Below, piece after piece: positions 1 through 5,641 of a stretch of 64,000 nt of DNA. The translations under genes and the position numbers were made by a program. Source of the stretch: Hexactinellida sp. DTS-2022 (taxonomy: Eukaryota; Porifera; Hexactinellida); NCBI GenBank assembly GCA_028753945.1, contig JAPNXP010000001.1, forward strand, positions 4,206,501-4,270,500, written 5' to 3'. The notes under the pieces were generated by a model. It did no database searches and had not been told where the DNA came from. It saw nothing but the letters and a program-made list of their open reading frames with translations. Numbering within the stretch: the first letter of the stretch is position 1; each line of letters starts with the position of its first letter.

Positions 1-96
1 TAGACTGGATTCAATTGATATCCTTGATTTTTCTAACCGTGGGAGTAAAAAATGAATTGAACTATCACTCGAATACCAAATAACCCAGTTCTAAAG
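1..96 (-). pseudogene. Unidentified coding fragment, downstream half (split by MULE insertion)
   Basis: Read on the minus strand, this stretch is open to the window edge. It continues in the same frame from the open minus-strand stretch at 5281-5153 if the transposon at 97-5152 and one copy of its 9-bp duplication are removed. The joined reading gives a charged, helix-prone peptide (motifs KADEKYCIATLDALK, then WVIWYSSDSS). I do not recognise the family. It may be a gene or an older transposon's ORF; only the open frame on both sides supports coding. Confidence 0.35.
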
Positions 97-311
97 ATGG
101 ATGTGAAGTTAGCAGCGCGAAAAGTGAGCACGACATAACTGGTTATAACTTTTCACTTAGGCTGAATATCCAGTTTAAATTTGTATCACAGCTTTATGAG
201 AGAGGTAGTTTTGCATCATTCCAATTTTTTGTCCCTCTCTTCAAAAACCACTTCACAATGACTTTGCAAAAATTCCCGATTTTCACTTTACAAACTCATA
301 TACAATTTGAG
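97..311 (+). repeat. Left terminal inverted repeat of the 2A-MULE
   Basis: This 215-bp sequence is the near-perfect reverse complement of 4941-5152. Shared landmarks are GAGCACGACATAACTGG near the outer end and CCCGATTTTCACT near the inner end. Confidence 0.85.
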
Positions 312-563
312 TTGCATATTTGTAGTACACAGTAGAGTTAGGTATAAAATGCTATTGTCATATATTGTTAATTGTCGTCATTTGTAGTTAATTTTGGACG
401 AATATTTTGACGTATCATTCTTTTGGCTTCTGTGACTATAGCATAATATTCTGATAAATACAATATATATAGTTAATAGTTAATACGATTATTCTTTGGT
501 TATTGGATAATATTGAACTTATTCGAATTTCACGCCTATAACATTTCAGTTTTGCATTTACTA

Positions 564-762
564 ATGGGAGTTGATCTTTGTACATTGCGCAACCACATTG
601 GGATATTCAATTCACGGAAATCTGCAAAATCTAGATGCTGCAAAATGATAGATATTCCTGGATTTGTTACATGCAACATTTTGATCTCCATCTTAACAAT
701 TTTATCTCTATTCCTTATTATTTGGGGAGATGTAGAAGTGAACCCAGGACCAAGATATAATG
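564..762 (+). CDS. Leader exon ending in a 2A ribosome-skipping peptide
   Basis: From the ATG at 564 the exon encodes about 66 residues. A basic/cysteine-containing stretch (FNSRKSAKSRCC) is followed by a hydrophobic segment (ILISILTILSLFLIIW) and immediately by GDVEVNPGP, residues 55-63. This fits the D-V/I-E-x-N-P-G-P consensus of 2A peptides, which make the ribosome skip the bond between the last Gly and Pro. The frame stops at 765, but a donor GTTAGT (763) and acceptor TTTATTATAG (ending 852) join it in frame (g+aa, Glu) to the transposase exon. N-terminal hydrophobic 2A leaders are known from sea urchin proteins, where they act as signal sequences when skipping fails; a similar role here is inference. 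An upstream in-frame TTG at 513 is not needed as a start. Confidence 0.75.
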
Positions 763-852
763 GTTAGTTATTTTACATGTACTACATACGTATTATTATT
801 GATGTTTCATATAATAAGTGATAATAAATTTGATTCAAAGAATTTATTATAG

Positions 853-2539
853 AAACTGGTGATGTCAAGCAAAGTAACGAGATTGTCTCAAAGATGACCT
901 ATGCCTTATCCAAGTTAACTGGACATAGTTCATTAATTTTGAATAATCTCGAATTGCTTAAAACACGAAATTGGCGGGATGCCTCTTCTATCTGGGGTAA
1001 ACTGGCAAAATGTGTTTATAGAAGAAATCGCTTGCAACTACGAGCGAAACTTATGAACATCTGGCGAAACAACCACTGGAATATCAAATCTCAGGTAACA
1101 CAAGCATTGACACTACCTAAAGATAAATTTACTCTACCTATCAGTATCAACATTTCTGAATTACCAGATACTCAGGTAACACAAGCATTGACACTACCTA
1201 AAGATAAATTTACTCTACCTATCAGTATCAACATTTCTGAATTACCAGATACTCAGGTAACACAAGCATTGACACTACCTAAAGATAAATTTACTCTACC
1301 TATCAGTATCAACATTTCTGAATTACCAGATATTCGTAATCATAGCGTGCTTTTCTCCCATTCTGATAATTCACTAGAATCAGACATCAGCTCAATTATT
1401 ACCTTTGAATCCACTGATCAGGTATCTAGTAAAATGCACATAGTTCAGTCGACAAATCGAGGTGAATTTGGATTGACAGTCCAAGAATGGAAAAAAAATC
1501 CAAATTTTTCAAATAGTGCTCTAAAGTCAGAATGGACAACCTTATTTAATGAGAAAATTTTCGTTTACTACCCGTTTTGTGTTCTAAAATTTTTATACCA
1601 TCGAATTAACAAAAGCTATTCAAGACGTGGATGTGCATTTCTTATTGCAGCAGCAGTTTGCAAGTTTAGCAATTGTTTTACCTTCAAATTTGAAATGGAA
1701 ACACCGCAAACAAACGCAAGCAATCTTTATCTCGTTAATTATACTGCTACTGGATCAATCTCTGAAGAACATTCATATAATTTAATTTCGCACAGCCGAT
1801 ATTTATCTGGAGACAGAAGAGAAGCCACTGCGAAACAGCTGGAACTTTCCAGTCCTTCTAATCTTCATTATTCTCTCTTTGTTGATTCACAAAATTTATC
1901 CGTTGCCACAAAAGGAAACTTCAATTATTTACACTCAACCGATGTCATTAGAAAGGTCAAGTCACAGCACTTTGAAAAAAGCCGATTTAATAATGATATG
2001 TGGCAGGACATCATTAGCACCCAAATGTCATATATGAGCACAATCATTGGGAATACTCTTAACGGCTACATTCAATTCATAAGTCATTCCCCATTCATCA
2101 TTCACTTGTATAGTGAAGAACAGATAATGTTGTTAAAGAAATTGGAAAAAGAATCTTTTACATTGCATTTAGATGCCACTGGTTCGGTTATCAGGAATTT
2201 AGATCATTTGAGAAAAAGAATCCTCTATTACGCTATCTCAGTAAAGCATCCTCTATCACATGTAAGCCCAATTCCACTTGCTGAGATGGTATCTAGCGAG
2301 CAGACAAACATAGAAATTTCACATTAGCTTAACCGATGGATATATGACGTAAAGAAGGTGACGAGAAGTGAGATATTACCAAATAAAGTTGAAGTAGACT
2401 TTAGTTGGGCCATGCTACACGGTGTCTGCAATGCCTTTAACAAACAAAACTTAGAATGGTATTTAAATAAATGTTGGGAAACTATTCACAAGAGCAATTC
2501 TACTAATTCAATAAAAGTAATAATACACATATGCTCGGC
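853..2539 (+). pseudogene. MULE-like transposase, N-terminal half (broken)
   Basis: The exon is open from the acceptor at 852 to a TAG at 2325-2327 and then continues in the same frame to the inserted MITE at 2540. An N-terminal basic helical region precedes three perfect 27-residue repeats (1092-1334). The RNase H-like core follows: first Asp in LDATG (codon 2172-2174), a conserved 'PIPLAEM' turn after it, and second Asp in VEVDFSWA (2397-2399). This D...D spacing and context match MULE/KDZ-type transposases. The single in-frame stop is the only lesion before the MITE, so decay seems recent. The product would begin with the 2A proline if skipping occurs. Confidence 0.7.
1092..1334 (+). repeat. 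Three in-frame 81-bp tandem repeats inside the transposase
   Basis: Three practically identical 27-residue units begin QVTQALTLPKDKFTLP and end ISELPD(T/I). The near-perfect identity points to very recent expansion. They lie between the basic N-terminus and the catalytic domain. Confidence 0.95.
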
Positions 2540-3062
2540 CAGTGCTGCCAAGTGAGTTCAGAAAAATTCCTGGAGATTGACCATAAAATTTACGAAGAAA
2601 CAAAGGTTTTTACGGAGCATGCTAAAATTTCCTTTGCGATCCAATAGTTCTTAATTTGCTTTTTCAAATCATATAAACTAACTATTTTGTATGAATAATC
2701 ATTTATAAATGTAGATATATGGGCGCTTTTTCGCTTGTAAACAATAAGATATACTCACTAATAGTATGTGTCAAACTATCAAAGTAAGATTTAATTTAAA
2801 TAATTTTTAATTGTGCAACTGTTTTGAATTAAGAGTATTCTGCGATTGGAATAATTCATCACGATGATATTATTTAACATATTATTAAACATAAATAATG
2901 ATATTGTGGTTCACTAGTAAAACAAAACGCAGTTATATGTTAAACAAGAAGTCTTAAATATATTTCGCTAGAAATACGTAGAAATAAGTCTTCATACGTA
3001 GACACGTAGATAGGGGTATATTTACGTAGTCTACGTAAATTTACGGAGACTTGGCAGCACTG
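2540..3062 (+). mobile_element. hAT MITE (CAGTGCTGCCAAGT family), copy 1
   Basis: This 523-bp element has TIRs CAGTGCTGCCAAGT and ACTTGGCAGCACTG and is flanked on both sides by the exact 8-bp duplication TGCTCGGC (2532-2539, 3063-3070). It sits in the transposase codons; removing element plus one duplication restores the frame (…CSAHIMNRFSYK…). A second copy lies at 59959-60594 in the opposite orientation. It has no ORF of note. Confidence 0.95.
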
Positions 3063-3070
3063 TGCTCGGC

Positions 3071-3987
3071 ACACATAATGAATCGGTTTAGCTATAAACT
3101 AAGTTCTAAGTTCAGGATGGATAAACAAAGGAAACAAAAGATCATGTTCATAATGGCTCGAATGACGAGTTGTACAACGATGGATGAAATGAATCAGTTA
3201 TTTGGCGCATTGAGTATGGTATGTTTATCAAAAAAGATCTATCCAAAAATTGAAAAATCTTTGATAAACTTAACACTCAATTTGTCTTGATAAGGCGTTC
3301 GATTTTGATCTCGAAAATATCACAGAACTAGATGAATCATTACCCAATGAAATGGGAGATAGCAAAACATATAAATCAAGATCTCCATTTGGTATACATT
3401 TTCAGAAAGAATTAATGAACTGCAAGTTGCTTGTTGGTATATTTGAAATGGAAGAACAACATGAAAGCACTCCTAAAAACAACTACTACTTTCCAGATTT
3501 ACCATCATTTCTTGTAACTCATTACATGCCAGTTTGTCCCCTCTGGTCAGGTCTTATACTAGGCTCATCCTTGCACCCAGATCAATATCATGTGACATCC
3601 ACGAATGCAATTGCAGAAAACTGAATGAGAATTGTAAAGATAACAATTTTGCAGAAACAATGAAAACTAAGACCGGGAGATTTCATTCGCAAATTAAGGG
3701 AAGGTATTGTTGGTAGAATAAAGGCATTCGAATTTGCATTCAATCCATTGAGCCTTAAAGTTCTCAAGAGACAAAAAACACAACAACTAAAAGATTATGA
3801 TCAAATTGATGAAATGTGGAAGAAGAAGAAACCAAGACAGACATACTTCAAACCAGGAAAGCCAATGAACTATAACAAACAAGCTTCCCTGAAAAATGTC
3901 AAGAATCAAACACAGGGAAAACTTAGTCATTTGCCTTCCATAATGGTCACTAGCCCTCAGGTCAACTCAAAGGCAGTAACATTGTAG
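3071..3987 (+). pseudogene. MULE-like transposase, C-terminal half (stops and frameshifts)
   Basis: Coding resumes after the MITE in the original frame to about 3285, then in frame +1 from 3352. Motifs include CSAHIMNRFS, the aromatic-rich YFPDLPSFLVTHYMPVCPLW, and STNAIAEN with a candidate third catalytic Glu (codon 3616-3618). TGA codons at 3622 and 3661 lie in the otherwise continuous frame, which continues through GIVGRIKAFEFAFNPLSLK and a Lys-rich tail to 3987. A frameshift (or unrecognised intron) lies near 3290-3350. The tail probably linked the transposase to the OTU domain downstream. Confidence 0.6.
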
Positions 3988-3991
3988 TGAT

Positions 3992-4652
3992 TTGTCTAAT
4001 GACGATTCTATTCCAGATGAAACTCTCTCTATAGTAGATGTCAAATCCTATTATCATGGAGAATTCAAGACTGTAACTCCGAGTTGGCAAAGGGAAAAGT
4101 GCAAGGTGATAAGACTAACATTTACAACAGGAATACTATATGCAAATGAAGCCGCTGATAAATCTCTTGAAATTCGACAATTAATTCCTACAAAAGAAAA
4201 AAGGATTTCACCTGATGGGAATTGCTTGTTTCGCTCTTTATCATACATAATTACAGGAACAGATTACAATCATAAAGAAATACGGGTGTTAATAATTGAT
4301 CAAATGAAGGGAGAATATAGAAAATTAGCCACCGATTACGTTCAAGCTCGAAAAGATTTATTGCCAGAGGAACGCTGCAATTCGATTGAAGATTATCTGA
4401 AAGCAAGCAAAATGGACCGAGTAGGATCTTGGGGTACAGACCTAGAAATATTTTTAGCAGCTATCATCCTGAGAACAGATATCTTTGTCTACAATGAGGA
4501 GGACCAATCCTGGTTGAAATTCTCAGGACATGGATTCAATGATGATGTCTACACATGATTTAACAGAACGCAGAGTTTATTTGAGATTAAACATGAGCCA
4601 CTTTCAGCCTGTCATCAAGGTTAATACCAGAACTCAAAGGCTTCCAAAATAA
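3992..4652 (+). pseudogene. OTU-family cysteine protease domain of the MULE
   Basis: The frame 3992-4558 contains the OTU signature DGNCLFRSLSYIITG, with the Asp-Gly-Asn-Cys nucleophile box, and later SWGTDLEIFLAAIILRTDI. The catalytic His motif (SHFQPV) is present but in another frame after about 4557, up to a TAA at 4650, so one frameshift separates it. OTU proteins are usually deubiquitinases; OTU domains are also seen attached to transposases, where the role is unclear (processing or removal of ubiquitin are possibilities). It was probably the C-terminal part of one polyprotein with the transposase. Confidence 0.75.
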
Positions 4653-4768
4653 GAAGTTTAGTTCCATAGTACTATCTATGAAGTTAGTCCATAGAATTTT
4701 AGAACTAGTACACAATTAGATTCTGATTTAGCGGTGTCAAGAAAATTAAATATTAGCATATTGATAAA
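4653..4768. other. Short 3' non-coding stretch of the MULE
   Basis: AT-rich spacer between the OTU stop and the inverted repeats; nothing recognised. Confidence 0.4.
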
Positions 4769-5152
4769 TTTGTATAGTGAAAATCGGGAATTTTTGCAAA
4801 GTTATTGTGAACTGGTTTTTGAAGAGAGGGACAAAAAATTGGAATGATGTAAAACTACCTCTCTCATAAAGCTGTGATACAAATTTGAACTGGATATTCA
4901 GCCTAAGTGAAAAGTTATAACCAGTTATGTCGTGCTCACTCAAATCGTATATGAGTTTGTATAGTGAAAATCGGGAATTTTTGCAAAGTCATTGTGAAGT
5001 GGTTTTTGAAGAGAGGGACAAAAATTGGAATGATGCAAAATTACCTCTCTCATAAAGCTGTGATACAAATTTGAACTGGATATTCAACCTAAGTGAAAAG
5101 TTATAACCAGTTATGTCGTGCTCACTTTTCGCGCTGCTAACTTCACATCCAT
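4769..5152 (-). repeat. Right TIR of the 2A-MULE, present as two tandem copies
   Basis: 4941-5152 matches the left TIR in reverse complement. A second, inner copy of most of it lies at 4769-4940 in the same orientation. The two differ by small changes, and the inner one lacks the outermost end (GCGCTGCTAACTTC). The right end thus carries a partial TIR duplication absent from the left end. Confidence 0.85.
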
Positions 5153-5641
5153 GTTCTGAAGAGATAGCAAATTGAGCTTTTGCTTCAATGCGTCAAGAGT
5201 GGCAATACAATACTTCTCATCAGCTTTGAATAATTGTTGACTTTCCTTTATTTCCTGAGTAAATAAATGCTCTTCTTCTCCTCAAACTTTAAACGTTTAA
5301 TATCTTTAGATCCTACGGGTGCTGAAAGATATGTGGACATCCTGGCAAGAAACATGGAACGGCATCATTGCGAAGGACTGGCACTTTACGAGGGAATTCT
5401 TGAAGGGATGCGTTTGGACCTGATGGCACCGAGTATGTCCGTGAGATGTCTTCACCGTGGAAATGTTTTTCACAAACAAAAGTGTTAGTATGGATCTGAC
5501 TTCTGGCTCCACAGGTAGTTTAAACACTGTTACATAACCATCAGTAGAACTGGTTTCCTTTACAGCCAGGCGCAGAACATTTGTTGGGCATAATTTGCTA
5601 ATTAATTGAATATTAAAAATTATAGTAAAGTGAATTATCAT
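5153..5641 (-). pseudogene. Unidentified coding fragment, upstream half (split by MULE)
   Basis: On the minus strand, 5281-5153 is open and encodes EEEHLFTQEIKESQQLF then KADEKYCIATLDALK. A one-base shift connects it to an upstream stretch ending VGSKDIKRLKFEE (5340-5283). A separate open frame covers 5641-5306 (including VLRLAVKETSSTDGYVT). The amino-acid make-up looks protein-like, but no family is recognised. A pyrimidine-rich ATCTTTCAG near 5325 could be a splice acceptor. Confidence 0.3.

Follow-up and report, generated by a model that had tools for sequence, protein, structure and literature searches.

Why would a cut-and-paste DNA transposon open its transposase gene with a ribosome-skipping 2A peptide, and what would such a peptide do to the enzyme behind it? 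The question is raised by a Mutator-like (MULE-like) element in a 64,000-nt stretch of the genome of the glass sponge Hexactinellida sp. DTS-2022 (contig JAPNXP010000001.1, positions 4,206,501–4,270,500, forward strand), hereafter called the window, by which we mean the whole stretch analysed. The element occupies positions 97–5152 of the window (5.06 kb), with a terminal inverted repeat (TIR) at both ends and a 9-bp target duplication, and encodes a transposase and an OTU-like cysteine protease domain. The explanation that we favour, with a probability of about 0.7, is that a separate leader exon carries the 2A sequence, that skipping frees the transposase–OTU protein, and, more tentatively, that the unskipped fusion would be diverted.

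The 2A core and its predicted leader exon

In the window copy, an open frame at 480–767 holds the core GDVEVNPGP, and the leader encoded by exon 1 ends in NILISILTILSLFLIIWGDVEVNPGPRYN, with one further base before the donor GT at 763. This donor and an acceptor AG ending at 852 would give a phase-1 join to a 491-aa extension, with an alternative in-frame acceptor possible 12 nt upstream of the latter. The original prediction had described a hydrophobic leader ending in GDVEVNPGP and spliced in frame across these sites, and at the level of the sequence both parts of that description hold (Table 1). GDVEVNPGP is unique in the window, and its mean count in 100 shuffles was 0.00. Genome-wide (112 Mb in 18 contigs), the strict core (D/G)(V/I)ExNPGP occurred at 52 sites, whereas the reversed pattern had none and a Pro-to-Ala variant had 1; the looser ExNPGP occurred at 160 sites, compared with 15 in the control. 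On these counts and the shuffles, a chance motif was rejected.

Ten transposase families, related down to ~37% identity and with their bodies confirmed by tblastn, carry the core. Its first residue is D in nine families and G in one, followed by V in two and I in eight, and E, N, P, G, and P are present in all ten, while the third codon positions vary (GAA/GAG 5:5, AAC/AAT 5:5, CCA/CCT 5:5). For L039 (fam8) and L090/L095 (fam11; 499 nt downstream examined), the search confirmed no body behind the core. Viral 2As commonly have either G(V/I)ExNPGP or D(V/I)ExNPGP as their core, with no dominant codon (PMC12846837), and cores starting with G are functional, as are those starting with D (PMC6249498, PMC12846837). 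Judged from the sequences, the 2A is conserved and is not a chance motif.

The motif could also be a fossil, or matter at the DNA level only, with no activity in translation. The window copy is indeed dead, as described below, and the core of L008 has decayed to NTGP (L056 shares its leader and has an intact core). We regard this as very improbable: 52 strict cores face 0 and 1 in the controls, the amino acids are fixed across ten families with varying third positions, and the in-frame donor lies in the same phase at the sites chosen. Moreover, one relative in the same genome (L062, contig C13), whose transposase is 44% identical to that of the window, keeps an open 1077-aa transposase–OTU frame behind its 2A leader and donor.

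Because the strict pattern itself fixes the core residues, the survey was also started from the transposase side. A genome search with the window transposase gave 99 matching stretches, several of them in open frames of more than 1000 aa, which were merged to 80 loci; 51 of these lay on contigs for which all ExNPGP sites were listed, and 29 were scanned for the strict form only. Of the 51, 18 had a same-strand ExNPGP no more than 2.6 kb upstream, none had one within 5 kb downstream, and none had one on the opposite strand; the strict core was upstream in 7 of the remaining 29. This survey reached seven of the ten core-bearing families (the window's own, fam2, fam3, fam4, fam5, fam6, and fam10). 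In the window's own family, the core was found 83–105 nt upstream in all seven loci that were located by the transposase (reaching query residue 1, at least 94% identity).

The first candidate donor after NPGP was in phase 1 at all 14 sites, exactly 10 nt past NPGP in 10 of them, where the sites were chosen representatives and the donor regular expression included forms already spotted by eye. Clear acceptors with long joined frames were seen behind short introns in five families (window, 90 nt; fam3, 54; fam5, 62; fam7, 52; fam10, 58). The core lies in frame between two coding parts, through a predicted phase-1 join or, in L077 and L104/L111, by direct fusion. A 2A-type leader on a MULE-like transposase–OTU protein, as originally proposed, is well supported by the core and the phase-1 donor in divergent families; the term polyprotein was too strong for a short leader and one transposase–OTU protein.

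Several results weigh against the favoured explanation. A core was found upstream of only 25 of the 80 merged loci, 29 of which were scanned for the strict form only. Acceptors were weak or unclear in L062, L043, and L037, and two of the 15 loci tried, L039 and L095, yielded no acceptor. Leader changes within the window's family were mostly nonsynonymous (8 vs 2), which gives no indication that the leader is constrained beyond its core; the eight copies behind this count were cut out by the core pattern, so that core retention among them is no evidence, and the seven transposase-first loci were used instead. In a 1255-aa subfamily, the 2.4 kb preceding the L061 frame contained no core, and a 1349-aa type had no ExNPGP within 2.6 kb at four loci; the leader is therefore not essential to this transposase type. 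Copies without a leader, which the original prediction had named as contrary evidence, accordingly exist in some deep subfamilies, but not among the seven transposase-first loci of the window's own family.

No core was found in the ~1.5 kb examined at L010, whereas its relative L068 (53% identity over 234 residues) has one. At L031 (position 1501), repetitive MG-rich sequence takes the place of the leader before GDIEINPGP, and the copies L038, L043, L064, and L073 are hydrophobic there. In a 21-row tree, the 2A families fell in the large clade of the window and on a deeper fam10 branch, and well-supported branches forced at least two state changes. The tree fits a single gain of the leader followed by losses, and it also fits several gains.

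Predicted skipping and its possible consequences

In our explanation, the transposase–OTU mRNA would begin with a separate exon for the hydrophobic leader, which closes with a 2A (StopGo) core. A ribosome translating the spliced message would, as at known 2As, leave Gly and Pro unjoined at the core, and the leader peptide would be released. Translation would go on to yield a transposase–OTU protein that starts with Pro and is free to enter the nucleus. By this analogy, skipping and release of the transposase are the most likely activity of the 2A. More tentatively, the leader of an unskipped fusion would act as a signal sequence or anchor that keeps the protein out of the nucleus and caps the dose, and the leader may in this way limit the share of the enzyme that reaches the nucleus. 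The hydrophobic stretch lies beside the core and should still sit in the ribosome exit tunnel when skipping occurs, so that skipping would be decided before signal recognition.

The model for this second fate is the 2A leaders of sea urchin, for which skipping is put at ~80%, a qualitative estimate, and the unskipped product enters the exocytic pathway (PMC4981915). Secretory targeting of the unskipped product is plausible by this comparison, and from the same leaders we infer that unskipped transposase would be excluded from the nucleus.

Segments before the core had a mean hydropathy of 1.76 in 12 MULE-labelled leaders (p 3e-8), two of which (fam8 and fam11) belong to families without a confirmed body, and of 1.68 in all 20 leaders (p 8e-12), compared with 0.01 in the background; the 20 leaders were a chosen set, and the background comprised 27,563 overlapping six-frame windows. 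Hydrophobicity directly adjoined the core in all 20, most of which exceeded the 90th percentile of the background. The same pattern would be expected if the 2A were a translational brake only, with pausing or drop-off lowering the amount of transposase and the hydrophobic stretch serving as context without a role in targeting, and 2A activity does depend on upstream context beyond ~10 residues (PMC6249498, PMC12846837). Leaders, however, are often 40–60 residues long or more, which exceeds what the core needs, and in some of them basic residues precede the hydrophobic stretch, as expected of a signal sequence. We consider the brake less likely than not, though it deserves clearly more weight than a fossil motif.

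Structure of the window element

The positions of the features are collected in Table 1. The left and right TIRs align at 96.8% over 219 bp by blastn, and the right TIR sequence is doubled in tandem (4764–5152). The target duplication of MULEs typically measures 8–11 bp. The TIR-bounded element with a 9-bp duplication that had been proposed is present, with one mismatch between the two copies of the duplication in the window. A relative on contig C1 (L063), a 3972-bp element with the outer ends of the window element as well as leader and donor, has a perfect 9-bp duplication (GTATAATAC). At L002 the flanks do not match as a target duplication.

Table 1. Features of the MULE-like element, in window coordinates
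Feature	Position	Strand	Basis or remark
Left copy of 9-bp target duplication, GTTCTAAAG	88..96	.	Adjoins left TIR
Left TIR, outer end ATGGATGTGAAG	97..312	+	blastn against right end; same end in relative L063
Exon 1, leader of 66 codons and one base	564..762	+	ATG at 564
Hydrophobic segment NILISILTILSLFLIIWG, mean hydropathy 2.32	675..728	+	Hydropathy scoring
2A core GDVEVNPGP, predicted skip between Gly and last Pro	726..752	+	Motif search
Predicted intron, 90 nt, phase 1	763..852	+	Comparative basis
Transposase part of exon 2, to premature TAG (2325–2327)	853..2327	+	Open frames; fold from relative L062
523-bp inserted element, inverted ends CAGTGCTGCCAAGT, 8-bp duplication TGCTCGGC	2540..3062	.	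Breaks transposase
Transposase C-terminal remains, several frames	3071..4558	+	Open frames
OTU-like cysteine protease domain with PDGNC motif	4211..4510	+	Pfam PF02338, E 5.9e-10
Inner second copy of right TIR sequence	4764..4940	-	blastn
Right TIR	4938..5152	-	blastn
Right copy of 9-bp target duplication, GTTCTGAAG	5153..5161	.	8/9 match, one mismatch to GTTCTAAAG

This copy is dead: a premature TAG and the 523-bp insertion interrupt the transposase, and frameshifts and short broken frames follow. The insertion is presumably a non-autonomous hAT-type element, a label that we take from its 8-bp duplication and its ends. The original prediction had the transposase continue into an OTU domain; the domain is present above the Pfam cut-off and with its catalytic-type PDGNC motif, but the frame is broken before it in the window copy. 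By sequence, the OTU region of L062 also matches PDB 6dwx (E 2.9e-4). The window transposase contains three in-frame copies of an 81-bp unit (1090–1335); the related public protein P0006 has it once.

No Pfam match was obtained for the catalytic part of the window transposase. The model of the full L062 frame was poor (pLDDT 41.8) and was replaced by a model of the catalytic region alone, whose fold was of the DDE type and closest to ISCth4. The DDE-type fold of the catalytic part is accordingly a modelled one, and its assignment to the MULE/IS256 type is tentative.

Leaders on other transposons and in known systems

Hydrophobic 2A leaders also open the frames of L034, L059, L060, and L077, which are Ginger-like by an H2C2 zinc finger and an rve integrase core, L034 and L060 reaching the Pfam cut-off for rve only; L077 has a SCAND3-like zinc finger besides the integrase domains. 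In all four, the 2A core reads straight into the enzyme with no intron. A further leader type, MISIExWRxRIG followed by a hydrophobic stretch and GG(V/I)ExNPGP, is matched 93 times in the genome and precedes the fam10 MULE–OTU elements, a PF20700 type, and the L098/L094 elements. The Mutator-type transposase PF20700 (L111, E 3.5e-39) shares an open frame of 912 aa with the L104 leader, which precedes it, and L102 paired with L105 is built likewise. The L098 leader runs, with L106, into a protein of many near-identical short KRAEHNIAVAERLKDP-like repeats, for which no Pfam family was found above its cut-off.

One leader on several element types could mean that the released peptide is itself useful, for example as a small membrane peptide, with the 2A letting one mRNA make both products. 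Leaders of families with homologous transposases, however, share no detectable sequence beyond the core, and leader changes in the window's family are mostly nonsynonymous, as given above; such a role seems improbable to us, if less so than a fossil.

Leaders and bodies gave discordant comparisons. In a search run without low-complexity or composition correction, fam10 and PF20700-type leaders matched each other (E 8e-6 and 2e-5), and PF20700, Ginger-like, and L098/L106 proteins had no match at E 1 to six MULE–OTU bodies. Between fam10 and the window family, the bodies matched (E 2e-54), whereas the leaders had no match at E 0.01. This discordance suggests that leaders were exchanged between elements; fast divergence of leaders, combined with hydrophobic stretches that are alike by chance or convergence, could also account for it. 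A wider reading, which we put forward tentatively and hold somewhat less probable than its opposite, is that unrelated DNA transposons have exchanged the 2A leader as a portable control module; they would share one translational switch and a nucleus/membrane split as a built-in dose limiter.

At L047 and L051, GDVExNPGP is followed by weakly PHD-like cysteine-rich sequence, possibly of a non-LTR retrotransposon, a class of element in which 2As have been described before. Among 36 public proteins compared, ExNPGP was present in one (P0027, Ginger-like); several of the others have an internal Met as their first residue, so that a leader exon would be missing from them. In a Ginger-like protein from another glass sponge, Oopsacas minuta, there was no ExNPGP.

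Like the 2A signal sequences at the N-termini of sea urchin NLR proteins, the leaders are short, hydrophobic, and terminated by D(V/I)ExNPGP, and in both systems the fate of the downstream protein would depend on whether it is separated from the leader or stays fused to it (PMC4981915). The sea urchin leaders belong to host immune genes with measured activity and localisation, whereas those described here belong to transposons and are known from sequence. 2A sequences within mobile elements have precedents in non-LTR retrotransposons (Odon et al. 2013, as cited in PMC4981915 and PMC12846837); these are RNA-based elements, and their 2As are described as internal in their proteins (PMC4981915), unlike the N-terminal leaders of the DNA transposons here, mostly on a separate exon in the MULE-like families.

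The window family shares with MULE/Mutator-like transposons the long TIRs, the 9-bp duplication, and, tentatively, a modelled DDE-type fold closest to ISCth4, and differs from them in its 2A leader exon, its fused OTU domain, and a catalytic region without a Pfam match. A C-terminal OTU domain also links it to Ginger1, to which the second 2A-led type, with H2C2 and rve, corresponds by domains (PMC2836005); no 2A leader is mentioned for Ginger1 in the accessible parts of that paper, and the Ginger-like frames here are known by their domains. The original prediction had found a 2A on a cut-and-paste transposon beside a protease unusual. The protease is not the odd part, because OTU or Ulp1 domains on Ginger1 transposases and Ulp1 domains on Mutator-type transposases were already described (PMC2836005). 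For the 2A, no account in DNA transposons was found among the titles and abstracts listed in searches of the open literature; a 2025 survey of eukaryotic and viral 2As (Rao et al., Cell Rep 44:115822) may already contain such cases.

What emerges is a familiar type of leader in an apparently new setting, with hints that a module is shared between elements. The 52 strict cores of this single genome, many borne by DNA transposons that span at least three types of transposase, provide a large natural collection of 2A sequences from outside viruses. The dose of a transposase and its access to the nucleus become testable as a question of translational recoding, and the likeness of the leaders raises the question whether those of sea urchin immune genes and those of transposons have a common origin.

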